Source: a virus
IMG/VR virus record: IMGVR_UViG_3300009091_000003
Coordinates: 1 to 49,384 of that record
Direction: 5' to 3' (one strand)
DNA: 49,384 nucleotides
In this document: positions 1 to 23,386 of the stretch, piece after piece
Layout of the letters: every line of letters begins with the position of its first letter
Position numbering within the stretch: position 1 is the stretch's first letter
Notes under the pieces: generated by a model
Databases searched by the model: none
Seen by the model: the letters and a program-made list of their open reading frames with translations, nothing else
What the model was told of the DNA's origin: nothing
Made by a program: the position numbers and the translations under genes

Positions 1-123
1 GAAGATTACACCCTTAGCATTGGGGCTAGTCATCAAGTGCGGCGCGATGATAAGAGCGGTTTCTGGCGTGAGCGTGCGCCGGATCTTGGTTTCTCTGCTA
101 GACAGACCAAGGAAATCCTGCAC
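1..123. repeat. Terminal overlap, identical to 49262-49384
   Basis: 123 identical bases at both window ends, lying inside the major capsid gene with the reading frame kept. This is the mark of a circular assembly graph path. A genuine terminal repeat inside an essential gene is unlikely. Confidence 0.9.
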
Positions 124-648
124 GCGGATGTGTTTAATAGCAATACGACCGGCCCCGATGGGGTGGCGTTGTTTGCTAGTAACCATCCGAATATCCGGGG
201 TGGGACGCAGAGTAATATCCTCAGCCCCGCCGGCACCTTGTCAGTGCTTAGTCTGCGGCTTTGCCTGACAGCCTTTAGGAAGTTCTACGACGATACGGGC
301 GTCCGCAAGCGCATGTTGAAACCTACCCGGCTCGTAGTGCCGCCGGATGAGGAATACAATGCGAAGGAAATTCTGCAAAGTGCTGGCCGACCTGATACGG
401 CTAATCGAGCAGATAACGTCATCAAGGGTGCCCTGACGGAGTTCGTCTATGACTACCTGACGGACACTAATAACTTCTACATCCTGGCCGATAAGTCCCA
501 GCATAAGCTCAAGAGCTTTAATCGGGAAGCCTTCGATGTGCGGGAGTTCTTTGATGATAAGACCCGTATGAATTGGGTCCAGGCCGCGATGGCCTTTTCC
601 TACGGCTTCTCCCACTGGATCGGTACTTACGCTAGCTTGCCTGCATAA
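1..648 (+). CDS. Major capsid protein, C-terminal part (gene continues from 49022 across the join)
   Basis: The frame is open from base 1 and ends with TAA at 646-648. Joined to 49022-49261 it gives a 295-residue protein. Sequences such as SNHPNIRGGTQSN and ALTEFVYDYLTDTNNFYILAD match what I know of HK97-fold (Mu gpT-like) major capsid proteins, which form the icosahedral shell. It follows scaffold-like and decoration-like genes, the usual head-gene order. The first ATG-like codon inside the window (position 37, GTG) is not the start; the true ATG is at 49022. The family call rests on recognition of motifs and context, not on a search. Confidence 0.8.
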   Translation, partial: EDYTLSIGASHQVRRDDKSGFWRERAPDLGFSARQTKEILHADVFNSNTTGPDGVALFASNHPNIRGGTQSNILSPAGTLSVLSLRLCLTAFRKFYDDTGVRKRMLKPTRLVVPPDEEYNAKEILQSAGRPDTANRADNVIKGALTEFVYDYLTDTNNFYILADKSQHKLKSFNREAFDVREFFDDKTRMNWVQAAMAFSYGFSHWIGTYASLPA

Positions 649-2012: not shown

Positions 2013-2375
2013 ATGAGAAAATTAGTAATTGCTATCTTCCTGTTGCTTCCACTAGCTAGTTGGGCTATTCCAGAAAATACTCCTATTACTATCTTGGATA
2101 ATAAGGGAATCACCAATAAGACCTACACGCATGTCACGGCGCAAGAGATTACGCTGTTTAAGTATGGTAATGCTATAGATGTTTTAGACATGCCCGAGAA
2201 TTGGCAAGCCTGTGTTAATGCTAGCTACGCCCCGGCTGTTATTAGGGAAGCGGATCTCTGTCGTTGCGTGTTGTATGCTCTTACAGACGGCACAGTCGGG
2301 AATCCTATCTATGAGCTACATCTACGCTGCCCCGATGGGACAGATAGGACTGTTTATACTAATGCAATACGCTAA
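2013..2375 (+). CDS. Secreted-type protein, paralogue of the preceding C-terminal domain
   Basis: 120 residues; AGGAGG at 2003-2008 precedes ATG 2013. Residues 1-18 (MRKLVIAIFLLLPLASWA) form a classic Sec signal peptide with an A-x-A-like end. The mature part aligns by eye over its whole length with the C-terminus of the preceding protein: GITNKTYTHVTAQEITLF against GITNKAYTHVTALEVTLF, then CRCVLYALTDG and LHLRCPDGTD. Two or three conserved cysteines suggest disulfides and an oxidising location. Function unknown; a tandem duplication of a surface or envelope domain is likely. Confidence 0.8.
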   Translation: MRKLVIAIFLLLPLASWAIPENTPITILDNKGITNKTYTHVTAQEITLFKYGNAIDVLDMPENWQACVNASYAPAVIREADLCRCVLYALTDGTVGNPIYELHLRCPDGTDRTVYTNAIR

Positions 2376-2386
2376 TAGGGGGTGAT

Positions 2387-2452
2387 ATGTATTTCGCCTT
2401 TATGGCAGTTGTACTAATAGGGTATGTTCTTTGGCATGATATAGCGGGGTAG
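2387..2452 (+). CDS. Tiny single-span membrane peptide (21 aa)
   Basis: ATG 2387 is preceded by AGGGGGTGAT, a good ribosome site, and the frame ends with TAG at 2450-2452, overlapping the GTG/ATG start region of the next gene. The peptide MYFAFMAVVLIGYVLWHDIAG is one hydrophobic segment with polar ends. It lies in the lysis/tail part of the late operon. It could be a lysis accessory or simply a translational-coupling leader. Too short for statistical support. Confidence 0.4.
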   Translation: MYFAFMAVVLIGYVLWHDIAG

Positions 2453-2454
2453 TG

Positions 2455-3225
2455 ATGTTAGACTATAGCCAGATTGATGAGATAGGCAGGCTGTCATTGG
2501 CACAGATGCGTACCGCGGTGTGGGAAAATCTGGCTGCGATCTATCCGGCCAGTGTTGACTCTGATAGTGGTGAACAGAGCGCAAGCTACCGGATAGATCC
2601 CCTTTATACAAAGGCACTGATAGATAGGTTGCTGAATGAAGCACTCACCGCGAGGATGCTGGATCTAGTGAATAATAATGAGCTGGCCTTCGCGGATGAG
2701 GAAGTGATAGATGTAAAGAAGGACATTGTTGAATATCAGCTACCAACAGATTGTGCTTTTGTAAGGGGAATGTGGTGGAAGAATTCTGATGTTACAATAA
2801 TGCAAGTTCCTCGCAGCGAGCGGCTGTTTATGTATCAGGTGGAGGAGGGGGATAGTTCTGCTTTTGTTAGTAGCATTATGACCCTTGGCCCCAGTTATCG
2901 GTTTATTGTTGGAGGATTTATACTGAATGAATCCCCGACTGTGGATAATCCTGGCGGCATTTTGATTGAATATATAAAGTGGTCCCAGCCGTTAGTGAAT
3001 GATGAGGATACAATCGAGACTCAGTATGCCAGGCTATTGCAAGAGCTGATTATATTGGACGCTGCCATTGCCGCGGCTAGTCGCCGGGGTGATCTGGATA
3101 CTCAGCAACTTAGACTAGACCAACAGAAATGGGAGGCTAGGCTACAGATTGCGGGCCGGATGCACATAGCCCCGTCGGTGCGGTGGCTTATGGCAGACAG
3201 ATTCCCTATAAAGGGGAGGTTCTAA
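2455..3225 (+). CDS. Putative head-tail adaptor or tail accessory protein
   Basis: About 256 residues; ATG 2455 is preferred over GTG 2452, with GCGGGG upstream. The N-terminus is helical and acidic; the middle has YQLPTDCAFVRGMWWKN, a pattern I associate with adaptor/gatekeeper-type proteins under phage portals (P22 gp4 and T7 tail-tubular-A-like groups), followed by a beta-rich part and a helical C-terminus with many Gln and Arg. Its stop TAA overlaps the ATG of the next gene (TAATG), indicating coupled translation. The adaptor call is an inference from pattern and operon position. Confidence 0.5.
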   Translation: MLDYSQIDEIGRLSLAQMRTAVWENLAAIYPASVDSDSGEQSASYRIDPLYTKALIDRLLNEALTARMLDLVNNNELAFADEEVIDVKKDIVEYQLPTDCAFVRGMWWKNSDVTIMQVPRSERLFMYQVEEGDSSAFVSSIMTLGPSYRFIVGGFILNESPTVDNPGGILIEYIKWSQPLVNDEDTIETQYARLLQELIILDAAIAAASRRGDLDTQQLRLDQQKWEARLQIAGRMHIAPSVRWLMADRFPIKGRF

Positions 3226-4037
3226 TGTGGATATTGTTAATTCTTCTTCTAATAGCCGGGCCTGCTGGGGCGTTGACCTACGTTCCTTGCGACCCGGTTA
3301 CTATTGTTGGTACACAGGGCCGGCCTATTCCTAATGCCACTGTTGCTATTACGACAACGGCTGGGGTTCCTGCTACTAGTCTGTTTTGGGACGCCGCGGG
3401 TTCTATGGTATATGATAACACAGTGCCAACCAGCGGAGTGTTGCAGGTATTTACCAATCCTGGTACTTATATTTTCACTGTCCAAGGACAGGGATTGATG
3501 CGGCGGTATTATGCTCGCTGTGGTGTTGGACTAGGTGAAGGTGTTAAGACGGTTAGTATTAGTCGCACGGCGGAAATGTATGTGCTAGAAGGTAGCGCGG
3601 CATTGACCTGCCCGGCGACTAGTACGCCATGCTATGTTACGTTAACGCATGACCACTTGCCCACGCAGGATGGTATTCGGTATAGTTTTGTAATGCCGAG
3701 CTATTCGTTGACGTTTAGTTCGCTGTTGATTAGCTATGTATCAATTCATCCTAATAGCCCAGTCGGGGCTAAGGTTAGATGGTATGTAGATTGGTGTACT
3801 TATGACGAGAGTGATATTCCTTGCAGCCCGGATGGAACCAATTTACAGAAGTTCACTGATCCCAGCACTGGCGAAAATAATCGCTCTGATACTAGCCTAG
3901 ATAGCACATCTTTTAGCACTACTTGGGAAGCGAATGATGTGGTGGTCTTGAAGCTCTACCCCGCTTTCCAGGATGCGATAAATGAGGTAGAGCATATTCG
4001 CTTGTATGATACTAGGCTAGAATTCTTGCGTAATTAG
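3225..4037 (+). CDS. Signal-peptide protein with beta-sandwich domains
   Basis: 270 residues starting at ATG 3225, which overlaps the previous stop; GGGGAGG lies 6 nt upstream. [16 protein letters not shown] is a signal peptide. The mature part begins with [20 protein letters not shown], resembling carboxypeptidase-regulatory or Ig-like beta domains, and later has a jelly-roll-like segment ([20 protein letters not shown]). Several cysteines are spaced as in exported proteins. It is the second in a run of five signal-peptide genes inside the tail region. A tail appendage or a protein displayed on the infected cell are both possible. Confidence 0.7.
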
Positions 4038-4050
4038 AAAGGGGGCTAGC

Positions 4051-5535
4051 ATGTGGCTTTTACTACTAGCCCTTTTTCTAATCGCTAGCCCGGCTTTCGC
4101 CGGTAGTACAACTGTCACGGATTGTACTATTATCACAGGCGATTTGGATGGCGGGGGCTATAATGATACCAAGACGGATAATTCGGTTCTTTATATCATT
4201 GGCGAGCACACCGGCACGCCGGGATTTAATGTAGAATGTACATTTGATAGCGTGCCTGAGCTAGCTACGCGTACTTTTCATGTTAATGGTTATTATAATG
4301 GCAACGTAGGCCATAGCGTTGAGGTCCGGGTCTGGAATTATAGCAGCGCGGCCTGGGTGGATGTGAATGGGACTACTAAGGACATCCCCTCGGGTATTGT
4401 AGAAACAGATTATGATTTTGACGTAACTAACACGGACTGGATTGATGGCGGGCAAGTTAAAGTACAGTTCTACCATACAACCAGCGGTAGCTCTACACAT
4501 GAACTTGCATTGGATTATTTAACTATCGAGAGCACTGAGTTCACTCCTACAGCTACAAGTACACCTACGAGTACGAATACACCCACGAATACACCTACAA
4601 ATACACCGACTAATACACCTACAAATACTCGCACGGCTACGCGAACGGCTACAAATACTCCTACACGCACACACACAAATACCCCAACTAGCACAGAGAC
4701 TCCTACAGTAACGCCGACGTTGGAATTTACCTATACCCCGACGGATACTCCAACCGTTACACCTACGGCTACTATTACTGATACCCCTACAGAAACACCT
4801 ACCGAGACGCCGACGGCTACGGTTACAGATACACCTACTGTTACACCGACGGCGACTATTACTAACACACCAGAGGACACGGCTACAGCTACACCTACGG
4901 CAGAAGAAGGCCCGACTGAGCCGCTTGTATTAGACACGGCTACGAGGACACCCTCGACTACGATGACACCAACACCTACCGTGAACGCGGCTGGTTGTTG
5001 TTGGATGTATGTAGCTAGTGGTAATTTTAGCTATTGCCTAGATCCGCATCCGTGGCCTTATCCTACTCCGCCGGCTACGCCTACTGGTTATAGCTGTTTG
5101 TTATATGGATATTCTGCATCCGCGGTGCATAATGTACCTAATGCCGCTTGCCCGGATGCGTATGATTACTCTCTTGGTGCTACCCACACAGCGCGAGGGA
5201 ATGTTAACGTATGCGTAGTCACTACACCTGCCACGCCGACTATTACTCGAACACCTACTACCACTCGTACCCCGACTAGTACTCCTACAGGTAATACACC
5301 GACTAGCACCCCGACTATTACTCGCACCCCGACTAAGACGCATACCAGTACTCCTACTACTAGACCTACTGGAACAGCGTACCCTACATTTACTCCAACG
5401 CATCGACCAGGATATCTTGTTTGTTGCGATTGTGGGGAGAGTTCCTGTAGTAGTGCTGAAGATAATAACGGGGTCTGTCCCGAAGGATGTACCACAGTGA
5501 GCGGGGCAGTGTGTTTAGAAGTATATGGAAATTAA
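4051..5535 (+). CDS. Signal-peptide protein with two Thr-Pro repeat linkers and Cys-rich modules
   Basis: 494 residues; ATG 4051 follows AAAGGGGG. Residues 1-17 ([17 protein letters not shown]) are a signal peptide. A beta-rich domain (about 18-160) is followed by a long TPTxTPT linker (about 165-310), a Cys-containing module with [15 protein letters not shown], a second Thr-Pro linker (about 395-455) and a Cys-rich tail starting CCDCGESSC. The layout (domain, linker, small disulfide domain) is that of extracellular adhesins or enzymes of bacteria, not of ordinary virion proteins. Binding of surface polysaccharide is a reasonable guess; no catalytic motif is visible. Confidence 0.75.
4543..4990 (+). 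repeat. Thr-Pro codon repeat, long array
   Basis: About 450 bp of degenerate ACNCCNACN units encoding TPTNTPT, TPTVTPT and similar. Unit variation (N, S, R, E, V, D at the variable position) argues for an old array rather than a very recent expansion. Likely prone to slippage and to assembly collapse. Confidence 0.9.
5221..5400 (+). repeat. Thr-Pro codon repeat, second array of the gene
   Basis: About 180 bp of the same ACNCCNACN pattern ([19 protein letters not shown]), placed directly before the Cys-rich C-terminal module. Confidence 0.85.
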
Positions 5536-5570
5536 ACGTAGCTATTGCATGCGGATATTGAAAGGATGAT

Positions 5571-7046
5571 ATGATGAGGCAGAGGTATTACAATATAGTT
5601 CTGTGTGCAGTTATTATAGCTGCTGCCAGCCCGCCCGCGATAGCTGCGACAGAGGATCTTACATGGGCTAACGTCGCGTACCAATATCGAACTAGGATTG
5701 ACGTTGATGGTGGCGAGTGTGGTTTGAACTGCCTTCCAACGGCTGATTTGACTAATTTTCCCATGCGTGTTGCCTTGAAGTGCGGGACTAATATCGACTG
5801 CGACAATGTTTTGCCTTCATGTAATGATATTATATTTTACGCAGAGGATCAAGCTACGCAGTTAAAATTTGAGCGGGAAAAAAGCTGTACTAGGGTTGCG
5901 GGAGAGACGAACGATTATTGGGTAAAGATACCTAGTATTGATATCGGGGAGTGCGATGGCGGGGCTAGAGATGGCTTAATTTGTGCTTCTAGTGCAGATT
6001 GTACTGGAGGTGGAATTTGTATTGACAGCGGAGGAGGAGGTACGCCTTCACATATTTGGGTATATTGGGGATCTCCAGCGGCTGTTGATACACAAGATCC
6101 AGAAAATGTCTGGGATAGTAATTATAAACTTGTATGGCATCTACCAGACGGAACTGTGCAGACTGCATTTGATTCAACGTCGAATTCTTATGATGCTACT
6201 TCTATATCAGCGACGGCTACTACGGGAAAGATTGATGGTGGCGCGAGTACAATGCTGAATAAATCAGTTACCCGCAGCCCTGCTACTGGATTGCCGAGCG
6301 GTGCTTCGGCAAGAACTCTCTCCGTTTGGGCAAAATTTGGGGCTAATAACGGGGTGTCTATCGTAGGCTACGGAGCTAATGATACTGGCCAGCGTTGGGC
6401 AATTGGTTATAGCTCTAATCTCATCTATGCTCCTGAAGCTACTGCGGTTGCCTGTAATTTTCCATGGACTTATGATACTAATTGGCATTACATAGCTACT
6501 ACCTTTCCATCAGGCTCTACTCTTGTGAGTCAGTCTAAGGCTTATTTTGACGGGGAGTTAAAGGCTACTACCTGCACTGGGACAACTATAAATACGAATA
6601 CTACTCAGCCTTTTACAGTAGGATCTCTCCCTGCTGGTTCTGTAGAACCAGGTTCTCTAGCTTGGTTCACTGGTACTGCTGATGAGGTTCGTGTTAGTGA
6701 TATTGAACGTAGCGCAGTGTGGCTAAAAGCTGAGTATGATTCAAGCCGGGAAGATTGCTCCACGTCATGTTTTCTTACCTATCAAACTGAGGCTATTATA
6801 GCTACACCTACAATTACTTCTACGGCTACAATTACCTCTACAGCTACAGTTACTCCTACGTTTACTAATACGCCTACAAATACTCCTACACCAACGGCTA
6901 CACCTACTCCCCCAGTTGGCTGCTGTGATTGCCCTAGTGGAGCTTGTGTTGCGCCAATAGAAGTAGCCGGGACTCCTATTTGTCCAACACTTCCACCTAG
7001 TACTCCTGCATGTGATTATGTAGCTAACGCGCACTGTGTCCAATAA
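5571..7046 (+). CDS. Signal peptide - DUF2341 - LamG-like - Thr-Pro - Cys-rich tail protein
   Basis: 491 residues; ATG 5571 (or 5574) follows AAAGGA. The N-terminus (IVLCAVIIAAASPPAIA) is a signal peptide. Residues about 30-185 match the DUF2341 pattern (TNFPMRVALKCG, DIIFYAEDQATQLKFE, HIWVYWGS, VWDSNYKLVWHL), followed by a LamG/concanavalin-like domain (about 190-395) ending TADEVRVSDIERSAVWLKAE. Within it, CDGGARDGLICASSADCTGG is a Cys/Gly motif I know from secreted proteins of environmental bacteria. A Thr-Pro linker and a CCDCPSGAC tail close the protein. Probably sugar-binding. It is paralogous to part of the next gene, but its base composition is like the rest of the phage. Confidence 0.8.
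   Translation: MMRQRYYNIVLCAVIIAAASPPAIAATEDLTWANVAYQYRTRIDVDGGECGLNCLPTADLTNFPMRVALKCGTNIDCDNVLPSCNDIIFYAEDQATQLKFEREKSCTRVAGETNDYWVKIPSIDIGECDGGARDGLICASSADCTGGGICIDSGGGGTPSHIWVYWGSPAAVDTQDPENVWDSNYKLVWHLPDGTVQTAFDSTSNSYDATSISATATTGKIDGGASTMLNKSVTRSPATGLPSGASARTLSVWAKFGANNGVSIVGYGANDTGQRWAIGYSSNLIYAPEATAVACNFPWTYDTNWHYIATTFPSGSTLVSQSKAYFDGELKATTCTGTTINTNTTQPFTVGSLPAGSVEPGSLAWFTGTADEVRVSDIERSAVWLKAEYDSSREDCSTSCFLTYQTEAIIATPTITSTATITSTATVTPTFTNTPTNTPTPTATPTPPVGCCDCPSGACVAPIEVAGTPICPTLPPSTPACDYVANAHCVQ
6796..6912 (+). repeat. Thr-Pro codon repeat
   Basis: About 115 bp of ACNCCNACN-type units (TPTITSTATITSTATVTPT) between the LamG-like domain and the Cys-rich tail. Confidence 0.85.
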
Positions 7047-7067
7047 GCCTTGGGGAGGAGAAATTAT

Positions 7068-10000
7068 ATGAAACAGATGCAGCCTCCCCGAGATGTTATG
7101 TTTAGACTTTTGTGGCTAGTTTTTATAGCTATATTAGCTAATTATTCAGTTGCATTAGGAGCTACACTGACCTTCTGCGACGGTACGACATGCACATCGT
7201 CGAGCAACGACGATGCCGCGGTTGATGCTACCGGTGGCTATCCTCATGCAGGCCCAAAGACCTGTTACAACAGCGTGGACATTGGGTCGGATGGTACGTC
7301 GGATGTGTTGGCGCAGGAATCTCCCGACAATGGCACGGAAATGTTGCTCCAGTGGGACACGAGCTACATTAGCAGTGCGACAATAACAGGTGCCGCATTG
7401 CGGCTTCGATTGACGGGCGCCATAGACAACAACAATGATCGGGATTTCATCTGTGAGTATTTCGACTGGGGCGGCACATGCGATGATACGGACTGGACCG
7501 CAACGAAACCCAGCTCCCCGATCCTGCGTGTCCCATTGGTGTACTTAACGGCCGCCGCGAGCAATGACATTCCTATCACCGACACGTCGGGCATCGCCAC
7601 AGGGGGGACGACTCGGCTCCGGTGCTTTATATCCGGTGCTGCGGCAGCGTCCACCAATGTGCTCATTGCCGCCGCTGTTGAAGATGCCTCACTCACCGCG
7701 CCGCAGCTTATAGTGACGACGACGACATCGAGCACGGCGTGGGCAGACGCGAGTTATGGGAAGCGCCGAAAGATTTTGTTTGACGGCGGTGCGGACGATG
7801 GGAGCAAGGCCAGCCGCATTCCCAATAGTTCAGTCACGAACTACCCGGTGTATCTCCCACTGAAATGTGGAACGAACATCGATTGCGACGCGATCCAGAG
7901 TGATTGCGACGACATTGTGTTCTACGCTGACGACCAGACGACACAGCTCAAGATGCAGCAGGAAGGCGGAGCCGCCGCATGTACCAGGACATCTGGCGAG
8001 ATAAACCATTATTGGGTCAAGGCGCCGTATTTTATTCCTACGTCCGGCGGATGGGTCTGGATGTATTATGGCAATGGCTCAGCGACGGATACACGCGATC
8101 CTACAAATGTATGGGACAGTAGTTTCGTCGGCGTCTGGCATATGGGGACGGCGAGCACATTGTCCGGTGCGGACTCAACGAGTCCAGCGAATAATGGGAC
8201 GTTGGAAAATACGCCAACAGCCGCGGCGGGTATGCTGAACGGGGCGGGCTCGTTTGCGTCGGCGTCGAGCCAGGATATTGTCGTGACAGACCCCAACGAA
8301 CCACAATCGACCCGTGTGACGATGAGCGCATGGGTCAACGTGACGACATTCGCACATGATACCTACGCAATCAGCTACGGGAATACAGCCACGTCTGGGA
8401 CACACCTGGGATTCTTGACGAGTTCGGGCAATAAATTCGCCGCATTCAATGGGGGCGAGCAGGCTGCGTTGAGCACGACGACTGTATCGACAGGCGTGTG
8501 GGTATTCCTGACGAGTCTGCATACCAATACCGTACGAGGTCAGCGTATTTACGTGAATGGCGCGTATGAGTCGCAATCGACGAGTTCGGGGTTGAACAAT
8601 GCAGTGACGGATCTCTATATCGCCCGGCGGGGACAGGGGACGAATTACTACAATGGCCTCGTCGATGAGGCACGCTATAGCACCGTTCTGCGGTCGGATT
8701 ATTGGATTCTCGCTGATTACAACAGCCAGAGGCATAATTGTAATAGCGGGACTGATCCTGTTACGAATAGCTGTTTTCTGACATTTGATAGCGAAGAAGC
8801 GCCGACCCCAACGCCCACCGACACCCCGACCGTCACGCCTACGATAACGCCGACGGATACTCCCACAAACACGCCAACTCAGACGCCAACAATTATACCA
8901 ACTAACACACCAACAATTACACCAACTAATACCCCAACAAGAACGCCCACTAATACTCCAACCAATACTCCAACGCCAACTAATACTCCACTTCCCTATG
9001 GTACAGTTGGAGCCTTAAAAGCGTGCATGAGAGGGTATGTAGATGAGGTTATCTCCGTAAATAGACATACCTTTGTAGGAGGAGGAGAATATTGGAGCGC
9101 GGCCCCAGGTTATGTAAATAGCTATGCTTCCGATACATGGTTTGCCTTTAGCGGCTGCCCAGAGTGCTTTACGGCTGCGGAGATACTGCCTACTATACAG
9201 AAAAACATAGCCGTTCCCAGATTCGATGGCCAATTTCCAATGGCTATTGATGGTAATGGAGCTGTAGTTAGCTACTGCTCAGCTTGGGATCCACATTATC
9301 CGCTAGGAACCTGCGCTACGGAAGGTCATGCTACTGGCGATGCACAGTTTTTCCTGCCGATGATGGAGCGGCTGTACTACGAGAAAACTAGCAACATTAG
9401 CCAATTCCAGGCTGATGCGGCGAAGTTGAAGACGGCTCTACAGGCAGTGCCACGAAATCCATTTACTGGCTTGGTTACTATAAATAACTACGATAAATGG
9501 AAGTACTGGGGCTTCCAAGAGGCTTTAGATTCTACTGGAGATATTTTAATTGGTTCGCTATTTTATTATAAGGCCAGTGTTGATATGGCGTATCTCTATG
9601 GCGTTGCTGGAGATGCCGCGAATCAAGCACTGTTTCAAGGCTATGCTGACACTATAGCTACTAACATCCAACTTCTCTGGAGTCCGCTAGTTGGGATGTT
9701 TCTTTCGGCTACGGTTCAGAACGCTCAGATAGACACTATGGGATCGGCGTATGCTCTATATTTAGATCTGGCAACTAATGAACAGAAGGCGCTAATTAGC
9801 CAGCACTTAGTGAATAATTTTGGTACTTACGAAGCTGGCACAGGTTTCTTTAAGCAAAGCCTGGGCAACTGGGCCTACGGTGGTGGTTGGGGTTCAGGAA
9901 CATATGATAATGGCCGCTGGTCAGTTGGAAATGAGTGGATTTTAACAGCATTGGCATATTCTAGCCTTCCAACTGCACTGCAAATGGCTGCAAATCATTG

Positions 10001-11021
10001 CAATGCAGCTGATCCTACTATAGAGTACTTAAACATCGGGGGTGGGGGCGGATTTACAGATAATCTGGTATCTCCAATGGGTACTTATAGATGGCTTACA
10101 ACCTATCAGCAACAGACTTTGCCGACGGCGACGATGACACCTGTTCCAACAGTTATGCCACATTGTGAGACATTTACCCCCGAACCTACGGCTACGATAC
10201 AGGCTCACTGTGAGACTTTTACTCCTGGAGATACACCTACAAAGACTCAAACACCAACAAGAACTGTTACTCCTAGTGTGACTTTAACTCCTACCCGCAC
10301 GCCGACTTGCTTCGGTAGTGTGTATACGGTTACGGAAGATCCGAGTATTTGCGAGAGCGTAACTACTTGGTATCCAACTCCACTAGCTCAAACTTATGAT
10401 GCTTGGGATGGTCCAGGTGGGGCAATAGCCCCGGATGATACCTTGGTAGCTAGGGTTACTTTTAGCACGCCAGATGAAGGTTCTGGAAAAGCTATTAGCG
10501 AGTACCTCTATTGTCATCACTACGGTTTTGCTATTCCTAATACAGCAGTAATTCAGGATGTTAGAGTTACCGAACAGAGGGAACGTGGACCATTAGGAAC
10601 TATATTTGAAAATTCGGCTAATCTTGTGGGAGCGACACAGCAGCTATCGCCTAGTAATGCGGCAGACGGGCGAGTTTGGACTTTTGCTGCTAGGACATAT
10701 AATAATTTAGGTACTTGGGGTCTCGCGCTGAATCCGAATGGTGTTAATGATAATAGTTTCGGCTTTGCTATGACAGCGTATTCTACAGTCGAAACGGCTA
10801 GTGCTGATGTAGATGTCGAGCGGATCACTATTCAATACTGTGACCTAGCCCCGACTCCCTCACCGACTAGAACTCGTACACCGACTAGAACCAGGTCGCC
10901 CTCTCCTACTATCACTAGCACCCCGACAGGCACACGGCGAATTATCTGTGCGACTGTCACTCCTACGCCAATAGCAACTATGTCGCGACGTAGTTATCCT
11001 ATGCCGTACTTTTGGGAGTAG
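7068..11021 (+). CDS. Large modular tail protein: DUF2341-LamG plus probable six-hairpin glycosidase
   Basis: 1317 residues. ATG 7068 is chosen because GGGGAGGAG (7052-7060) precedes it. Modules in order: signal peptide (to about residue 33, ending SVALGA), a beta domain (about 34-220), DUF2341 (about 225-350; TNYPVYLPLKCGTNIDCD, VWDSSFVGVWHMG), LamG-like (about 350-565), Thr-Pro linker (576-642), an alpha-helical domain (about 642-1017), a second linker, a jelly-roll-like domain (about 1081-1259; NDNSFGFAMTAYS, VDVERITIQYC) and a last Thr-Pro stretch. The helical domain (FDGQFPMAIDGNG, KYWGFQEALDSTGD, GRWSVGNEWILTAL) looks like an (alpha/alpha)6 glycosidase, so a capsule- or EPS-degrading role is likely. 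The DUF2341-LamG part has foreign, GC-rich composition. Confidence 0.8.
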   Translation: MKQMQPPRDVMFRLLWLVFIAILANYSVALGATLTFCDGTTCTSSSNDDAAVDATGGYPHAGPKTCYNSVDIGSDGTSDVLAQESPDNGTEMLLQWDTSYISSATITGAALRLRLTGAIDNNNDRDFICEYFDWGGTCDDTDWTATKPSSPILRVPLVYLTAAASNDIPITDTSGIATGGTTRLRCFISGAAAASTNVLIAAAVEDASLTAPQLIVTTTTSSTAWADASYGKRRKILFDGGADDGSKASRIPNSSVTNYPVYLPLKCGTNIDCDAIQSDCDDIVFYADDQTTQLKMQQEGGAAACTRTSGEINHYWVKAPYFIPTSGGWVWMYYGNGSATDTRDPTNVWDSSFVGVWHMGTASTLSGADSTSPANNGTLENTPTAAAGMLNGAGSFASASSQDIVVTDPNEPQSTRVTMSAWVNVTTFAHDTYAISYGNTATSGTHLGFLTSSGNKFAAFNGGEQAALSTTTVSTGVWVFLTSLHTNTVRGQRIYVNGAYESQSTSSGLNNAVTDLYIARRGQGTNYYNGLVDEARYSTVLRSDYWILADYNSQRHNCNSGTDPVTNSCFLTFDSEEAPTPTPTDTPTVTPTITPTDTPTNTPTQTPTIIPTNTPTITPTNTPTRTPTNTPTNTPTPTNTPLPYGTVGALKACMRGYVDEVISVNRHTFVGGGEYWSAAPGYVNSYASDTWFAFSGCPECFTAAEILPTIQKNIAVPRFDGQFPMAIDGNGAVVSYCSAWDPHYPLGTCATEGHATGDAQFFLPMMERLYYEKTSNISQFQADAAKLKTALQAVPRNPFTGLVTINNYDKWKYWGFQEALDSTGDILIGSLFYYKASVDMAYLYGVAGDAANQALFQGYADTIATNIQLLWSPLVGMFLSATVQNAQIDTMGSAYALYLDLATNEQKALISQHLVNNFGTYEAGTGFFKQSLGNWAYGGGWGSGTYDNGRWSVGNEWILTALAYSSLPTALQMAANHCNAADPTIEYLNIGGGGGFTDNLVSPMGTYRWLTTYQQQTLPTATMTPVPTVMPHCETFTPEPTATIQAHCETFTPGDTPTKTQTPTRTVTPSVTLTPTRTPTCFGSVYTVTEDPSICESVTTWYPTPLAQTYDAWDGPGGAIAPDDTLVARVTFSTPDEGSGKAISEYLYCHHYGFAIPNTAVIQDVRVTEQRERGPLGTIFENSANLVGATQQLSPSNAADGRVWTFAARTYNNLGTWGLALNPNGVNDNSFGFAMTAYSTVETASADVDVERITIQYCDLAPTPSPTRTRTPTRTRSPSPTITSTPTGTRRIICATVTPTPIATMSRRSYPMPYFWE
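7171..8790 (+). other. GC-rich segment of foreign composition inside the tail gene
   Basis: From about 7171 to 8790 codons switch to ACG, GCG, TCG, GAC-rich usage; a 60-base sample at 7561-7620 has 38 G or C. The tetramer CTAG, frequent elsewhere in this genome, is absent from 7120 through 9302. Before 7168 and after about 9000 the usual GCT/AGT/CTA-rich phage codons return. The edges fall at the signal peptide and at a Thr-Pro linker, so whole domains were exchanged without breaking the frame. The exact borders are approximate. Confidence 0.75.
8797..8994 (+). repeat. Thr-Pro codon repeat
   Basis: About 200 bp of ACNCCNACN units linking the foreign LamG-like module to the glycosidase-like domain. 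The first units are GC-rich like the foreign segment (CCGACCGTCACG) and later ones are A/T-rich at third positions, consistent with a recombination point inside the array. Confidence 0.85.
10120..10310 (+). repeat. Thr-Pro codon repeat and duplicated CETFTP units
   Basis: Thr-Pro linker after the glycosidase-like domain. It contains two copies of HCETFTP (about 10159 and 10204), a short internal duplication with one cysteine each. A further short Thr-Pro stretch lies near 10850-10945. Confidence 0.8.
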
Positions 11022-11027
11022 CTAGGT

Positions 11028-11420
11028 ATGGATTTTGCTGGAATTGTAGAGAGGAGAACTCGAACCAGGATTGTTTTTTATACTGGCACTGCCGGGCAGA
11101 CAATCCATCCGCAGATTAGCAAGAATGGAGCAGCCTTCCAAGTCGCAACAGATGACCCAGCGCATGAGATTAGTGGCGGATTTTACTACTTTGATCTTAT
11201 GGCTACTGAGCTTGATAGTTTGGGTCCCGTTGCTGTGCTTGCTGGTACACAGCAGTTGGTTGTAGAGGTTAGGGATCTAGTATCTGAATTAGCTACCCGT
11301 ATTGCTAGTAGAATGGCTACAAAGGATGATCTTGTAACAGCTAATGACAGCACAGAGCAGGCTATTAGGAAGCTGATTAACAATGGTGTCCGGGCGCAAT
11401 TGATAAAGAGGCTGTCATGA
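11028..11420 (+). CDS. Small tail-associated protein with beta N-terminus and helical C-terminus
   Basis: 130 residues, 6 nt after the previous stop. The N-terminal 70 residues (FYTGTAGQTIHPQISKNGAA, EISGGFYYFDLMATELDSLG) resemble the small beta domain found at the start of many phage fibre and baseplate proteins; the C-terminus (ATRIASRMATKDDLVTANDS) is helical and may form a coiled coil, as in trimeric attachment proteins. The stop TGA overlaps the ATG of the next gene (ATGA), so the two are translationally coupled. Likely a fibre adaptor; function not proven. Confidence 0.6.
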   Translation: MDFAGIVERRTRTRIVFYTGTAGQTIHPQISKNGAAFQVATDDPAHEISGGFYYFDLMATELDSLGPVAVLAGTQQLVVEVRDLVSELATRIASRMATKDDLVTANDSTEQAIRKLINNGVRAQLIKRLS

Positions 11421-13501
11421 ATAAAGCAACTCCAGCAAGCCTAGTCCTAGGTGGGTTCGAGGGTATTGATAACAGCACTAGTGATATAGGTCGGCCTGTT
11501 AATACATGGGAACAGTTGGAGAATTTTGATCTGTATTTGCCGGGGGCGATTAGGAAGACCAAGGGACTAGTACAGTATCCTGATGAGGATACATTCTTCA
11601 GTTCTCCTTTTGTGGCTATTTTTAACTACCGCCGCACCCCGGCGGATGATTCTAAGATCATCGGCCTGGCCCAAGATGGTAGTATTTATGATATTGAGAA
11701 TAACCTACTACTGGATACTTTCGGTGTGACATTGCCATTTGAGGCTTGGTATGCTATTCAGCAGGCCACGGTTGTCAGTGGCGGGCCGGAGAAGTTGGTT
11801 AATTGGATTATTGTTAATGATGTTGATGGTTATATGTGGGCCTGGGATGGGGAGAGTGTTATTGAGAGAGTAGGACATGGTATATCTAATACTGGCCACG
11901 GCTGGTTAGGGTTAATGCTAGGGGTTAATTATGTAGCTTATACTAATGACGAACAACGGGGCCAAGGGATTGTGGTGCATAGGAAGTATGCTATTACATT
12001 CTACAATCCTATCACAAAGCACGAGACTAGTCCTACCACAGATTCGGATTATCGCAGCCAGGATCTTACAAAGAGATGGACTAATACAATTGGCCCTAAT
12101 AGTATTCCACAGCAGCCGAATTATCCTTTTGTTGGCTGGGTGATGTGTTTATTGCATATTTGGCCTGTAGGTAATTATACACACTTCAAGCTATATGCTA
12201 CTCGTGATGGGGGTAGCGAGCTGTATCTATGTACTAACGTGGCCGCGCATAGCCCCGCTGAGAATAAGTGGTACGGGCCAGATGCAGATGGGGCTATGCC
12301 AATCTTCGATGCCCCGTTTAATGTAATGGATGGGGTTAGTCGGCCCGAGGATGCTAATACAGATGAATACTTTGTTAGCTCAGTTTATAACGTAGCCAGC
12401 GGCGAGCCAACTGATGTTACATTAGTCGGCTTCGACGACCCAACCGATCCGGCCACTGGGAATATAGCCGAAAGCTTCATGACCCCGGATAGCTTGCTAG
12501 TAACACCGGCACCTTATTATGGGGCTAATGATCCACCTCCGTTAGCTAGGTGGGGGACTAGCTATCGCGGTCGATTGTGGATCGTTGATAAGGATATACG
12601 GGCCAAGTTGAATTTCAGCAAGCCTGGTGAGTTTTGGAGCTGGCCCTCTGATAATTACATTGTAGTAGATAGTGATAGTTATGATGACATTGTTTCCCTG
12701 AAGGCACAGGCGGATCAATTACTGATACTAAAGGATCGCTCGGCGGTTAGGCTGGTCGGGGTGGATTTTAGTGACTTTACAATTCTTCCAATTCAGCAAG
12801 CCTCGGGTATTGTTGCTAAGAGGGGAGTGCTAGAGACCCCGACTGGGTTGATAACTTTTAGCCAGCCCGGACTTAGCCTATGGTCGGGTGATTCTATCTC
12901 TGTTATTGGGCGAGAGATCATTGATATAACTAGCGCTATCTATGGACTCCAACTGCAATATATCTGTACGGCATACTTTAGTTCCCAGCAAGCTGCTCTT
13001 ATAGCATATATAGATCAGTCCGAGGCTAAGTCTAAGATTATCATGATCCAGCTAGGCCGGGAGCATCCTTTTAGTATCTACAATCCATTTGAAACCTTTT
13101 GGTCTGTTAATACAATGGCTGAAGTAGAGGATCGGGCTAATAATAAGATCATCCTAGCCTCTTGCTTTACACTCTGTAACACAGGCGCAGTGTATAGGTT
13201 ATTTGCAGAAGATACTGATACCGCAGCCGTGGCTGAGACGCAGTGGTTGCCTATTGATAAGTTGCCTAATAGGAAGCTGTTTAAGTATTTAAGAGTAGAG
13301 GGCACGATTGATGATTGGGTTTTGGAATATAAGACTGACAAATTTGATTGGCAACCTGTGGTACCTTATACGTTACTTTATAAGAACCCATTGGGGGTAA
13401 TAGGGAATCGAATTAAGCTAAGGTTGACGAATACTTCCGCAACCGGGGCCGAGCTTAGTAATATGCAGGTAGACTATATAGACATGGGAGAGAGGCGCTA
13501 G
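11417..13501 (+). CDS. Putative tail nozzle / hub protein (beta-propeller-like)
   Basis: 694 residues. The N-terminus (LGGFEGIDNSTSDIGRP, WEQLENFDLYLPGAIRKTKG) is the type of start seen in nozzle or stabilisation proteins of short-tailed phages, where a chain of beta strands forms a propeller-like ring below the adaptor. Repeated blade-like segments follow (IIGLAQDGSIYDIENN, WAWDGESVIERVGHG, LLILKDRSAVRLVGVD, PTGLITFSQPGLSLWSG). No signal peptide, no linker repeats, and base composition like the head genes. It is followed directly by ejection-type proteins, matching the podovirus order. Family assignment is by pattern and context. Confidence 0.6.
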   Translation: MNKATPASLVLGGFEGIDNSTSDIGRPVNTWEQLENFDLYLPGAIRKTKGLVQYPDEDTFFSSPFVAIFNYRRTPADDSKIIGLAQDGSIYDIENNLLLDTFGVTLPFEAWYAIQQATVVSGGPEKLVNWIIVNDVDGYMWAWDGESVIERVGHGISNTGHGWLGLMLGVNYVAYTNDEQRGQGIVVHRKYAITFYNPITKHETSPTTDSDYRSQDLTKRWTNTIGPNSIPQQPNYPFVGWVMCLLHIWPVGNYTHFKLYATRDGGSELYLCTNVAAHSPAENKWYGPDADGAMPIFDAPFNVMDGVSRPEDANTDEYFVSSVYNVASGEPTDVTLVGFDDPTDPATGNIAESFMTPDSLLVTPAPYYGANDPPPLARWGTSYRGRLWIVDKDIRAKLNFSKPGEFWSWPSDNYIVVDSDSYDDIVSLKAQADQLLILKDRSAVRLVGVDFSDFTILPIQQASGIVAKRGVLETPTGLITFSQPGLSLWSGDSISVIGREIIDITSAIYGLQLQYICTAYFSSQQAALIAYIDQSEAKSKIIMIQLGREHPFSIYNPFETFWSVNTMAEVEDRANNKIILASCFTLCNTGAVYRLFAEDTDTAAVAETQWLPIDKLPNRKLFKYLRVEGTIDDWVLEYKTDKFDWQPVVPYTLLYKNPLGVIGNRIKLRLTNTSATGAELSNMQVDYIDMGERR

Positions 13502-13502
13502 T

Positions 13503-14315
13503 ATGGCAAGCCTATTTGGTGATTTTAATAGCCTAACCCAGCGGCCGTATCAGGCTGATATGAATTGGCTCCCGCAGCCGTGGAATCCTGCTGGTGGGCA
13601 TACTAGGGAGCAAATACTAGGCTTGCCCGGCTCGGCGGCGGGGCTGCGGAATAGAGCCCTGTTGAGTGTTTTGGAGCAATACAATGGGCCGGGACTTGCT
13701 GGTGTTAATGCCGCAGGTGGGGTTGACACCGCAGCCCGGAATATGGATTCAATGCGCCAAAAGGCTATGTCCTCCATGTATAGCCGAGGTCTGCAAGGCA
13801 GTGGGGCTATGGATTTAACCAACAGAGCACTCTGGAAAGGATATGGAAATGATGTAATGAGTGCTGAGTATGGAGCCCAGCAGGGTGAAGTTGCCCGCAA
13901 GCAAGCCTTGTTGCAGGCAATGCAAGGTATTATATCAGGTGATATTAAATTTCGTGATACTGTTAACTCAGGTGTCTTGGGTGCCCAGCAAGCTAAAGCG
14001 GCTGAAGATGCGTTGTCGTTTAATAAGCTACTGTCTACAATAGGAAGTGGAGTCGGGTTATTGGCAACGCTGGGAGGCGGTGCTATGGGTGCTATGGGTG
14101 TAGGTGGATTAACTAGCATGGGCCAAGGTGCTTTGATCGGTAATGCCATTGGAACTGGTAACTTCGGGGCGCTAGGTACTATTCTTAATAATCCACAGCA
14201 ATATAGCTCCACCCCGATTAATGTTAGCAAGGCTGGCTTTGGCGGACTGGGACCAGATAACTATGTTGTTGATCCTACTGTTAGACAACTACTGGGTATG
14301 GAAAGGATGTATTAA
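13503..14315 (+). CDS. Internal virion / ejection-like protein 1
   Basis: 270 residues, ATG 1 nt after the previous stop region. Gly-, Ala- and Gln-rich; helical middle (residues about 70-150 with AARNMDSMRQKAMSSMYSRG) and a hydrophobic glycine-rich stretch (IGSGVGLLATLGGGAMGAMG, about 178-200) that could insert into membranes. This composition is typical of proteins injected with the DNA by short-tailed phages. No enzymatic motif. Overlaps the next start by one base. Confidence 0.55.
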   Translation: MASLFGDFNSLTQRPYQADMNWLPQPWNPAGGHTREQILGLPGSAAGLRNRALLSVLEQYNGPGLAGVNAAGGVDTAARNMDSMRQKAMSSMYSRGLQGSGAMDLTNRALWKGYGNDVMSAEYGAQQGEVARKQALLQAMQGIISGDIKFRDTVNSGVLGAQQAKAAEDALSFNKLLSTIGSGVGLLATLGGGAMGAMGVGGLTSMGQGALIGNAIGTGNFGALGTILNNPQQYSSTPINVSKAGFGGLGPDNYVVDPTVRQLLGMERMY

Positions 14316-14866
14316 TGGTTGATAATACTAACCGCTATGCCGGGCCCGGGGTGTATGATACTCCATTTCTTTTCAAGCCCAGTACTCAGTACAAATACTC
14401 AGCTGACCACCCCGTGTGGTATCAGCCCATTATCCAGACTAGGAATATGCTAAATCAGGGACTAGTTGGAATGATGGACCCGCAGCTAGGAACTGGGAAT
14501 CCCTTTGCTAATAGTCCTATCCTAGCCTCACTACGTGGAACCGCGGATGCTTTAAGTAAAGCACCAGGTCAAACTAGTACACAGGGCCGGATGGCTAGCT
14601 GGGGCGGAGATAGAGGATTACTCAGACAGGAAATGTCTACTGTTCCATACGGAGCTTATAGACAGGCAGCCGCGGCTATGCCAGAGTATTATGGCAAGCT
14701 GCTGGAAGCGTTAATGAATTCTTATCAATCCGCCGCTGATATTTTTGCTAGTGAAGAAGGTAATAGAGCAAAGAGGCACCAAATTGAGACTGGCGCGAAG
14801 CAAGCTGAGATGGATGCGTGGGGTCAGATTCCTATTATTGGTGGTCTATTGGGAGGACTGTTTTAA
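14315..14866 (+). CDS. Internal virion / ejection-like protein 2
   Basis: 183 residues. Polar N-terminus (GPGVYDTPFLFKPSTQYK), a helical Ala/Gln-rich middle and a C-terminus ending with a short hydrophobic glycine-rich patch (GQIPIIGGLLGGLF) that resembles a membrane-active tail. Start overlaps the previous stop and its stop TAA overlaps the ATG of the next gene (TAATG). Member of the same tightly packed ejection-type cluster; no family recognised. Confidence 0.55.
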   Translation: MVDNTNRYAGPGVYDTPFLFKPSTQYKYSADHPVWYQPIIQTRNMLNQGLVGMMDPQLGTGNPFANSPILASLRGTADALSKAPGQTSTQGRMASWGGDRGLLRQEMSTVPYGAYRQAAAAMPEYYGKLLEALMNSYQSAADIFASEEGNRAKRHQIETGAKQAEMDAWGQIPIIGGLLGGLF

Positions 14867-16191
14867 TGGCAAGCATTTTTGACACGACTAGGGAGTATCC
14901 ACAATTCTCACTTGGGGAGCCCCGAGTTCCCGAAGTGTTAGATCCTAATAGCCGCACATATAGCGCGCTGAATCCGACCAGTCCATTGGGGCCTAGCCTG
15001 ACCCCGATTATGGATGTTGTTATGGCACTATTGAAGCAGCATCCAGGTGGGGAGGCGTGGCGGGGGGTTAGCATCGGGGCTGATTTGGCCCGTGATGCTC
15101 TACAACGCCGGGCTATTAATAATTTACGGAGTGCTACCGGGATTGCTTATAGGGAAGGGCAGATTCCTAATCAGGTAGTGCCGTATGGAATCTTTGGCGG
15201 GGCCGGGAAGCCTAGAGCCTTGAATCCGCAGGAAGAAGCCGCGGCTAGTCTTGGCCTGTCGATGCATGAGGATAAGGATATTAATTATGCCAAGCTAATA
15301 GCCGAGGAACGGGAGCGCGGCGAGAAGGCTAAGTTTGATAGAGCACAGGCGTTTACAAGTCTAGTAGCAGAAGGCGGGGTGCCTTATGCTATAGGTGTGC
15401 TGAAGTCACTGGGGATTGATCCTAGTGAGTTTGCCAATACACCGCAGCCGCCTGGGCTGACTAATATGATGTATCGGCAGAAGCAAATCGAGGCCGAGAA
15501 CGCCCGGATTAATGCAATGGGTGGCGGAGGGGCTGCTGATAAGCGTGAGAGGATTGCCGGGGTTAGCCAGCTATTCGCAGAAGCTAAGGCTGATATTAGG
15601 ACTGATACTGATTTGCTGAAGCAGCTAGATGAGTTGGCTAAGAATCCCCTGTATATGGCCGACCCCGAGGCCATGAAGCAGTTAATGGCTGATCGGAAAA
15701 TGATTAATGAAAGGCTGACTGCTAATAGGGAACGTAGTAGGGGATTGGCTAATTGGCTTGCTACTAATCTAGGGGTGCCTGCTGAATTGCAGGGAACTCC
15801 GCCGCCGCCGCCGGGTGGTAATGGCGCGGTGCAAACAGACGCGGATCAGAGGCTAATAGACGAGCTGAAGAAGCTATATGAGTCTAATAAACTAGGAGGC
15901 GCTAGCTCTGAAGCTGGTGCTGGTGCTAGTAGCCCACCGGGGTATGGTATTAATAGTATCTATGATTGGCTAGGCTCTCTTAGATCCGGCCCTGGTGCTA
16001 GTACCGAAGATCCCCTCAGTGGTGGTTATAGTTCTACTTCGCCATATTCTGTTTATGTACCATCTATAGAGCCTCCTCTTAATAGTGGTACTGGCTGGGA
16101 CCCGCTGCTAAACTACTGGCGAAATAATGGCCCCTTTGGCCCTGGTAAATATGGTCAAGGAACACTTCCTTTTGGCCTTGGTACGTATTAG
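14866..16191 (+). CDS. Internal virion / ejection-like protein 3
   Basis: 441 residues; ATG 14866 is chosen because it forms TAATG with the previous stop, rather than an upstream GTG. Mostly helical and charged in the middle (LIAEERERGEKAKFDRAQAF, ENARINAMGGGGAADKRERI), then a Pro/Gly-rich region (GTPPPPPGGNGA) and a low-complexity Gly/Ser/Tyr-rich C-terminus. Disordered ends and a helical core are common in capsid-internal proteins. No enzymatic motif recognised. Confidence 0.55.
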   Translation: MASIFDTTREYPQFSLGEPRVPEVLDPNSRTYSALNPTSPLGPSLTPIMDVVMALLKQHPGGEAWRGVSIGADLARDALQRRAINNLRSATGIAYREGQIPNQVVPYGIFGGAGKPRALNPQEEAAASLGLSMHEDKDINYAKLIAEERERGEKAKFDRAQAFTSLVAEGGVPYAIGVLKSLGIDPSEFANTPQPPGLTNMMYRQKQIEAENARINAMGGGGAADKRERIAGVSQLFAEAKADIRTDTDLLKQLDELAKNPLYMADPEAMKQLMADRKMINERLTANRERSRGLANWLATNLGVPAELQGTPPPPPGGNGAVQTDADQRLIDELKKLYESNKLGGASSEAGAGASSPPGYGINSIYDWLGSLRSGPGASTEDPLSGGYSSTSPYSVYVPSIEPPLNSGTGWDPLLNYWRNNGPFGPGKYGQGTLPFGLGTY

Positions 16192-16205
16192 TGAATGGGA
16201 GATAA

Positions 16206-17840
16206 ATGATGCCAACCCCGGAAGATTTTGTAGCGGCCTATGCTAAGGCTAAAGGATTACAGTGGGGCGCTGCTGTTGATGAGCTACAGGATAAGCTCAA
16301 CAGTGGCATTACAATGCCCCCGGATGTGGCGAAGTTTATTAGCCAGCAAGAGTCGGGGCTGGTTCCGCTGGTACGGCGCGGGGCTGTTAGTGCAGTATCA
16401 GGAGCACTGACGCCGGTTGGGTCATTAGTAGACATCGGGGCTAATTTAGCCGGCTACCCAACCCACTTCGGGGAGGATCTTTGGAACTTGCCTAGTGAGG
16501 TTCCAAAAGGGCCGCGTGTTCCGGCAGGTGTTCCATTGATAGGTGATGAGTCTATTGGTGGTATTGCTGGACAAATAGTAGGCGGGACTGTTCCAGCGGC
16601 ATTGCTAGCAGGTGCCCCCGAGGGCAGTATGCTGGCAAAGGTATTTGGCACTAGGGGTGCTGTTGGAGGACTAGCAGCAAAGCGGGCGCTGTCGAAGATA
16701 GGATTACCCGATGATACGTTGGCTATTATTAAAGCTGAGAAGGGTGCTAAGGCCGCTGGCGGATTGCTAGATGAAGCGGTGGCGACTAAGGAGAAAGCGG
16801 CGAAGTTTATTGCCCTGAATAGAAAGCGGCGGGCGGTTGAAGATACGCTAGTTGGCGGTGCTTTGGGCGGCCTGTATGGGTACGCGCAAGGTGGGCCTAT
16901 TGAGGGTGGTATTATTGGGGCAGCTACAGGTAGAATCGGGGCGGCTATTGGGAGTCACTTCGCCAATAAGCCCCGCTTCAATGAGCGGGTGGATCTTAGT
17001 AATGCTATCGAGTATCTGTCGAAGTACTACGGCGAGCCCATTAGTACTACAATGGAACGCTTTAAGCTAAAGACCCCGGCAGCGGTTAATGAGGCACTAG
17101 CCGCGGCGGGCAGTCCTGATATTATCCCAATGACAGATACAGATGCCCACCTTACACAGACGGTTCAAGATATCTTCGGCCCCGCCCCGGATAATTGGAC
17201 TGGATCTTATGGTGATTGGGTAGCATATAAGATAGAGCTACGCAATAAGGCTAAATTATCACCTATAGATCCAGCTGATCTAGAGGCATATGTTGAGAAG
17301 TTTAATAACGCTGGAAAGGCTAAACCTACTGTTATTAGTCCACTATCACCAGAGGAAAAAGCAGCGGCTTATGCAAAGCACAAAGAAGTTATAACTGCTA
17401 TTACTAAGAAGATAGCAGATAATGAGCCAGTATCACCGGCGGAGCGCCAGCAGCTAGCTAATTCGAAGAAGCTACTGAAGGAACTGCATGGTGATGTAAC
17501 GACTGCAGCTAGCGAGGTCGGGGCTAAGGCCGCTCCTACTACTCCTACTACTGAAAAGACAACCGGGAAGAATAAGAGTAAGAAGAAACCTAGTGAGGCT
17601 ACAACTACCACGACGACAGCAACAACCCCGATAGGGGAAGGTGCCCCGGAGCAATTTACTATCTATGGTGAACTTGATCCTACTACCCTCGCCGCGGTTG
17701 GTGAACTTCCTAATCTAACAGCAAAGGGAGCCACGAAAGTAGACGAGGCGCTAGCAGAGTTAAAGAAGGCAGAGAAAAATGCTGTTAAAGGGAAGGTAAC
17801 AAGGAAGGCCGCAGGCCACCCTCAGAAACCCCGCCGGTAA
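16206..17840 (+). CDS. N-terminal part of a giant internal virion protein (probably continues by -1 frameshift)
   Basis: 544 residues as a separate protein. Starts at ATG 16206 behind GGGAGA. It has glycine-rich hydrophobic patches (GGIAGQIVGGTVPAALLAGA, GGIIGAATGRIGAAIGSHFA) and a Lys/Thr-rich low-complexity C-terminus (TTEKTTGKNKSKKKPSEATT). The frame ends with TAA at 17838-17840, but the -1 frame is already open from 17789 and encodes protein-like sequence without a start codon or ribosome site, continuing into the next giant frame. Either a programmed frameshift, a real split, or a one-base assembly error. Confidence 0.65.
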   Translation: MMPTPEDFVAAYAKAKGLQWGAAVDELQDKLNSGITMPPDVAKFISQQESGLVPLVRRGAVSAVSGALTPVGSLVDIGANLAGYPTHFGEDLWNLPSEVPKGPRVPAGVPLIGDESIGGIAGQIVGGTVPAALLAGAPEGSMLAKVFGTRGAVGGLAAKRALSKIGLPDDTLAIIKAEKGAKAAGGLLDEAVATKEKAAKFIALNRKRRAVEDTLVGGALGGLYGYAQGGPIEGGIIGAATGRIGAAIGSHFANKPRFNERVDLSNAIEYLSKYYGEPISTTMERFKLKTPAAVNEALAAAGSPDIIPMTDTDAHLTQTVQDIFGPAPDNWTGSYGDWVAYKIELRNKAKLSPIDPADLEAYVEKFNNAGKAKPTVISPLSPEEKAAAYAKHKEVITAITKKIADNEPVSPAERQQLANSKKLLKELHGDVTTAASEVGAKAAPTTPTTEKTTGKNKSKKKPSEATTTTTTATTPIGEGAPEQFTIYGELDPTTLAAVGELPNLTAKGATKVDEALAELKKAEKNAVKGKVTRKAAGHPQKPRR

Positions 17841-22939: not shown

Positions 22940-22945
22940 GTCGGG

Positions 22946-23386
22946 ATGATAGAGGAAAAGAATGGTAGCACTTCGAGCGTCTCCCTGCCGGTTATAGGTC
23001 TTATAATGGTATCAGCCAGTGCTCTGTATACTGGCTTCAGTTGGTGGCAATCTGAGGTTGCTAATGTTAGGAGGGTTATTGAGGCTCATGCTAGTGAGGA
23101 AGGACACGCAGGAGTGTTGGCTAGGCTAAGTGCAGCTACTAAGGAACTAACCGCGCTGCATGAGAAAATACAGGCTAGCGAGCGGGCTAATGTGGATCAG
23201 CATGTTGCAATCTACAGGAGGCTGGAGGAGATTGATAAGACAATAGATAAATTAATGGATAGAGTAGAGATATTACATGAGCGTACAATAAAGGACTCCG
23301 AGACATTGCGATTGTTTGAGGCTTATCATCCAAACATTGGCCTAGGGAGGCTGAATAAGAATGGAACAACTAGTGATGTTCGATGA
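22946..23386 (+). CDS. Membrane-anchored coiled-coil protein
   Basis: 146 residues, 6 nt after the giant gene. One membrane span near the N-terminus (SLPVIGLIMVSASALYTGFS, about residues 13-32) followed by about 80 residues of heptad-like helix (ATKELTALHEKIQASERANV, RRLEEIDKTIDKLMDRVEIL). Topology and length resemble an inner-membrane spanin (Rz-like) or a holin-associated protein, but there is no overlapping outer spanin candidate with a lipobox. Last long gene of the rightward block. Confidence 0.6.
   Translation: MIEEKNGSTSSVSLPVIGLIMVSASALYTGFSWWQSEVANVRRVIEAHASEEGHAGVLARLSAATKELTALHEKIQASERANVDQHVAIYRRLEEIDKTIDKLMDRVEILHERTIKDSETLRLFEAYHPNIGLGRLNKNGTTSDVR

Follow-up and report, generated by a model that had tools for sequence, protein, structure and literature searches.

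The phage genome and the gene carrying the module

The window analysed here spans 49,384 bases and is a whole IMG/VR virus record, the terminal repeats of which are identical over 123 bp (1-123 and 49262-49384). When the repeat is removed, the frame of a capsid-type gene (49022-49384 joined to 124-648) is intact across the ends, and given both the identical ends and this gene, the genome is probably complete, either circular or terminally redundant. Its signature is unusual, with TpA odds of about 1.22, CpG odds of 0.74, CTA as the commonest leucine codon, and 416 CTAG sites. A short IMG/VR contig (L007, 1-4084; 3300009167) is 100% identical to the terminase and part of the portal, and is, judging by this identity, the same phage assembled a second time; the module region lies outside its span.

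The gene at 7068-11021 is located between the head and the internal-virion genes (Table 1), and one third of its length is taken up by a foreign module. The start codon is likely to be the ATG at 7068 rather than the TTG at 7050, with the ribosome-site-like GGGGAGGAG directly upstream. The product would be an exported or virion-associated surface protein, in which modules are joined by Thr-Pro linkers in the order signal peptide, N-terminal Cys domain, DUF2341, LamG, linker, domain, linker, domain, linker.

Table 1. Features of the phage genome and of the gene with the foreign module
Feature	Position	Strand	Basis or remark
Head protein match	37-648		homology
Portal match	42016		homology
Terminase match	40460		tblastn
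DNA polymerase	25200-27605	-	homology
Internal-virion-protein match	11417		homology
Neighbouring gene	5571-7046	+	signal-peptide-like start, DUF2341-LamG, Thr-Pro array; native composition
Host gene of the module	7068-11021	+	1,317-aa protein, likely ATG 7068; mechanical ORF starts at TTG 7050
Signal-peptide-like N-terminus, MKQMQPPRDVMFRLLWLVFIAILANYSVALGA	7068-7163	+	native codon usage; runs to the 5' joint
5' joint, native to foreign codon usage	7161-7179	+	2-nat support interval; ML 7167
Foreign segment	7167-8855	+	ML codon segmentation
N-terminal Cys-containing part of the module	7170-7724	+	no Pfam match; poor model confidence
DUF2341 domain (PF10102)	7902-8114	+
LamG / concanavalin A-like jelly roll (PF13385)	8271-8693	+	modelled with confidence
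Thr-Pro array, part 1	8799-8858	+	donor-type, G/C-ending Thr codons
Thr-Pro array, part 2	8859-8993	+	native-type, mostly A/T-ending Thr codons
3' joint	8855 or nearby	+	codon segmentation and Thr codon split in the array
Native domain downstream of the module	9000-10110	+	family not assigned
Native C-terminal domain	10311-10850	+	weak relative in viral record L017

The original prediction was right to name DUF2341 and LamG, as both were recognised by Pfam. DUF2341 scores 26.1 bits on the isolated module, 26.8 bits at the DNA level and 22.9 bits on the whole protein (cut-off 23.4), and LamG is recognised both by its profile (E=2e-13) and by the jelly-roll fold of a confident model. In the model of 7161-8798, the DUF2341-LamG part is confident (approximately residues 192-527) and the first 190 or so residues are low. 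In Foldseek the LamG part resembles sugar-binding jelly rolls and further ConA-like ones, such as arabinanase domain 4, pentraxin PTX3 and a sialidase lectin domain, as well as many phage ConA-like proteins, and the predicted fold suggests that the module may bind a glycan or a surface. The downstream domain (8991-10124) has no Pfam or PDB match, and its single-sequence structure model is poor (pLDDT 33). The C-terminal domain (10374-10844) has a weak relative at L017 8766-9236, on the minus strand (29%, E=1e-5), which sits just upstream of that record's own DUF2341-LamG gene.

The description of the gene as a tail gene is, on the other hand, open to question. Signal-like hydrophobic N-termini, as judged by hydropathy and a crude sequence pattern, are present in genes 2013, 3183, 4051, 5571 and 7068, and the Cys content is 3.0-4.5% in 2013, 4051 and 5571, 2.1% in 3183 and 1.9% in 7068, whereas it is 0-0.7% in genes 11028-22946, among them the nearly Cys-free virion proteins downstream. 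Together these features argue for folding outside the cytoplasm, and the cluster at 2013-11021 possibly encodes exported phage proteins rather than tail parts, which raises the separate question of whether its products are virion parts at all. No homology to tail fibres or receptor-binding proteins was found, the only match being to a PHROG of unknown function over the Thr-Pro array, and the phage records searched contain no homologue.

Composition and borders of the foreign segment

Codon usage changes sharply within the gene, as had been predicted. GC3 is 0.61-0.65 over 7170-8789, compared with 0.30 in 7050-7169 and 0.34-0.42 in 9030-11018, and the synonymous-codon G of the module against the rest is 224, with a maximum elsewhere of 120.2 in 270 equal-size sliding segments. 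The codons ACG, TCG, GCG, GTC and CTC are more frequent in the module, while ACT, GCT, CTA and AGA are strongly reduced. The dinucleotide distance (delta*) is 269 in the module and 69 +/- 28 elsewhere, where the maximum of 200 belongs to the Thr-Pro repeats of gene 4051, so that both codon G and delta* lie beyond the range of the remaining genome. The CpG odds are 1.28 in the module versus 0.74 in the rest, and the TpA odds 0.82 versus 1.22. It is these codon and dinucleotide signals that carry the case for a foreign segment, given that GC3 alone is a weaker signal, as in other records the GC3 of the module and that of its locus differ by up to 0.19.

The reported absence of CTAG for 2.18 kb was confirmed as a run of 2,187 bp (7116 to 9303), three times any other run in the genome, in which the next-longest gap is 668 bp. 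When the stretch was recoded with the codon usage of the phage itself, none of 2,000 trials yielded zero CTAG. The tetranucleotide itself is not avoided genome-wide (416 observed versus 421 from the trinucleotide expectation), and its loss in the module is mainly due to the absence of the CTA leucine codon, which has no occurrence here and makes up about one third of the leucine codons elsewhere. Codon usage is native in the last 447 bp or so of the void, which thus overshoots the foreign segment at its 3' end.

One candidate reading, that GC-richness is inherent to the DUF2341-LamG fold, was rejected. A motif scan of IMG/VR returned 51 other viral stretches with this domain pair, 45 of which were usable for a GC3 comparison, and in these the GC3 of the domain region tracks that of the locus outside it (r=0.89, mean difference -0.01, SD 0.08). 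The preceding gene was also found, as originally described, to encode the same domain pair in native composition, with a GC3 of 0.32. At the 107 residues that are identical in the module and this neighbouring copy, the third base is G or C in 61% of the module codons versus 34% of the neighbour's, and the discordant third bases favour G/C in the module by 43 to 14 (p=1.5e-4).

The maximum-likelihood segmentation gives the foreign segment a score of 97.8 nats, compared with a maximum of 12.2 for simulated recoded genes. With a model trained on one half of the module, the edges fall at 7170-8855 or 7164-8855, and the unseen half scores +39.9 or +50.6 nats; the borders are thus sharp and reproducible on held-out data, and, given that each half predicts the other, the module has one shared codon dialect, as expected for a single transferred piece. 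The predicted borders of 7120-9302 are corrected to 7167-8855, the former being too wide on the 3' side. Of the two edges, the 5' one is confined to about 20 bases, and the 3' one is less sharp, with a 2-nat interval of 8663-8900 that contains gaps. Both joints are in frame, the 5' joint directly after the signal-peptide-like sequence and the 3' joint within a Thr-Pro array, which agrees with the joints proposed originally.

Across the 3' joint, the first nine Thr codons of the array all end in G or C, and 15 of the following 21 end in A or T, like those of the other Thr-Pro arrays of this phage. The two halves differ from each other (Fisher p=0.0007), and the first half differs from the other arrays (0.0004); a permutation across all split points gives p=0.0018. 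The array looks chimeric, and, as its first half is of the donor type, the donor gene probably also had a Thr-Pro array at the same position. All these signals support a foreign origin of the segment.

Kinship of the module and the search for a donor

The closest sampled relative of the module is the neighbouring gene of the phage itself, at 31-37% identity, and a 42-row tree pairs the two as sisters with a support of 100/98. Their branches are long, so the kinship read from this alignment is at the level of the family rather than that of a recent duplication. Five aligned Cys are common to both copies and absent from all the other aligned rows.

The two checks proposed at the outset, a protein search for the donor and a comparison with sibling phages, returned no close relative in the collections searched and no sibling covering the module. 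No full-length DUF2341-LamG relative above approximately 36% identity was found outside the window in viral contigs, species genomes, phage records or plasmid records, and single-sequence searches with the module or the downstream domain gave nothing beyond weak DUF2341-LamG matches. The sibling search, by way of the downstream domain, portal, terminase and polymerase, recovered only L007, which is identical in the terminase-portal region. A two-row alignment scan for the motifs KCGTNID and C[DN]DI[VI]FY returned 100 stretches, none of them related, while a genome scan with the pattern DP.NVWDS..VWH returned one archaeal and one Peribacteria record, at about 29% identity. The best cellular matches have 36% identity over DUF2341-LamG, with bacterial phyla beyond that reached through L062 covered by short motifs or plasmid records only, and the matches at the nucleotide level, of 30-48 bases, are of chance size only.

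Given this, the original claim that the module came from another genome stands as far as the difference in composition goes, although its nearest relative is the neighbouring gene of the same phage, which makes a donor of kindred type probable, rather than an unrelated organism. The likeliest source, on these alignments, would be a divergent allele of the same gene family in a genome of different composition. As donor, a kin virus is preferred over a cell, since it is a phage gene that lies closest to the module and shares its order of signal peptide, DUF2341, LamG and Thr-Pro array.

The domain order of the module is that of the 51 other IMG/VR stretches with DUF2341 (PF10102) and LamG (PF13385), and the LamG fold is widespread in viral proteins. 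The other viral proteins mostly lack a recognisable signal peptide, however (a crude pattern matched 8 of the 43 complete ones, one of which is a plasmid row), those aligned are without the five Cys, and their composition follows their own record, unlike that of the module. Bacterial proteins of the DUF2341-LamG-ExbB/MotA type, such as that of Methylomagnum (WP_221067154), share the extracellular domain pair at about 25% identity, but are fused to a membrane channel that is absent from the phage protein, and have no Thr-Pro linker. DUF2341 has been noted as an additional domain of ExbB/MotA-type ion transporters (PMC12505986).

Proposed recombination at the joints and competing explanations

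The N-terminal module has, in our estimation, quite likely been replaced in recent times by recombination with a related gene from a genome of different composition. The direction and recency of the exchange, and its nature as replacement or insertion, are what we infer from the segment. Replacement is more likely than insertion, given that a native signal peptide and a native half of the array are both still present and, before an insertion, would have had to adjoin each other, and a low age is suggested by edges that show no blending, as composition by itself gives no date. The incoming segment would have been the equivalent stretch of a related gene in a CpG-rich and CTA-poor virus or host genome, with one crossover just past the signal peptide and the other within the Thr-Pro array, the repetitive codons of which may tolerate misaligned exchange with the frame kept. 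As LamG is a lectin-type jelly roll, the likely effect would be an altered binding of glycans or surfaces.

Recent mosaicism has been reported for receptor-binding proteins and neck structures, for endolysins and for some replication proteins, and it sometimes crosses family boundaries (Nat Commun 2023 14:7460, PMC10684548). The present case resembles it in that a domain appears to have been shuffled, in frame and recently, inside a gene of the surface-recognition type. Recency in that study means at least 70% identity to a partner, whereas here, with no partner known, it rests on composition, and, unlike the phage tail proteins considered there, the gene begins with a signal-peptide-like sequence and its product is not proven to be a tail fibre. 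The case is thus one of ordinary phage domain mosaicism, unusual for its legible joints, its chimeric linker and its exported, Cys-rich context. The exchange of a domain within a gene is clearly readable, and the position of the 3' joint in a low-complexity Thr-Pro linker suggests how the frame survives.

Direct capture from a bacterial or archaeal surface-protein gene, rather than exchange with a kin virus, is the strongest of the alternatives, albeit an unlikely one. The CpG odds of 1.28 and the TpA odds of 0.82 resemble ordinary cellular DNA more than this phage. Cellular surface proteins often carry DUF2341-LamG, and the genomes searched in the phyla to which L061 (archaeal) and L062 (Peribacteria) belong are among the examples. 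A study of hot-spring viruses lists DUF2341 proteins among those of cellular origin gained by HGT (PMC11003980). The low identity of the best cellular matches argues against such a capture, however, as do the lack of the five shared Cys in the aligned cellular rows and the sister position of the two phage copies in the tree.

A chimera of assembly, in which the metagenomic reads of another virus or bacterium were joined here with the Thr-Pro array as a false joint, is improbable. The record is single and metagenomic, several of the phage's genes contain Thr-Pro arrays, and a 30-mer spanning the junction is absent from other viral contigs (a weak point, as the scan may omit records very near the window). 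Such a chimera would nevertheless need two independent false joins, both of them frame-preserving, the 5' one precisely where the signal peptide ends and in sequence that is unique, and it would have to yield a fused protein whose domains follow a plausible order, as in the neighbour, in a record that closes through its 123-bp identical ends.

Selection rather than transfer, whether for translation speed, for RNA structure or through a reverse-strand gene overlapping the module, is very improbable as the origin of the codon usage. The capsid gene is likewise GC3-rich and CTA-free, and the module is overlapped by reverse-strand ORFs of 90-186 codons, but long ORFs are to be expected on the reverse strand of GC-rich coding DNA. 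A single polypeptide has one level of initiation and expression, and yet its usage flips over a few codons at the 5' edge of the domain and returns to native in the linker. The CpG and TpA signatures shift as well, and the same domain pair has native usage in the neighbouring gene.

The capsid gene also has a GC3 of about 0.64 and no CTA codon, with CpG and TpA odds (1.05 and 0.98) that are only intermediate, which may reflect high expression or another exchanged gene. Part of the codon style of the module thus exists elsewhere in the genome, a point that is kept against its replacement by a related gene from a different genome.

The Thr-Pro arrays of this phage are possible recombination joints between genes and genomes. 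More tentatively still, and with the odds against it, Thr-Pro codon repeats might be natural in-frame joints at which cassettes of host-exported, Cys-rich, lectin-type proteins are exchanged between phages and cells across wide differences in genome composition. If reads and sibling phages confirm the exchange, Thr-Pro linkers would become testable as recombination joints of modular phage surface proteins. Such arrays, mostly with a 12-nt period, are found in four genes of the phage (1578-1733, 4549-5334, 6822-6914, 8805-8990 and 10269-10307).
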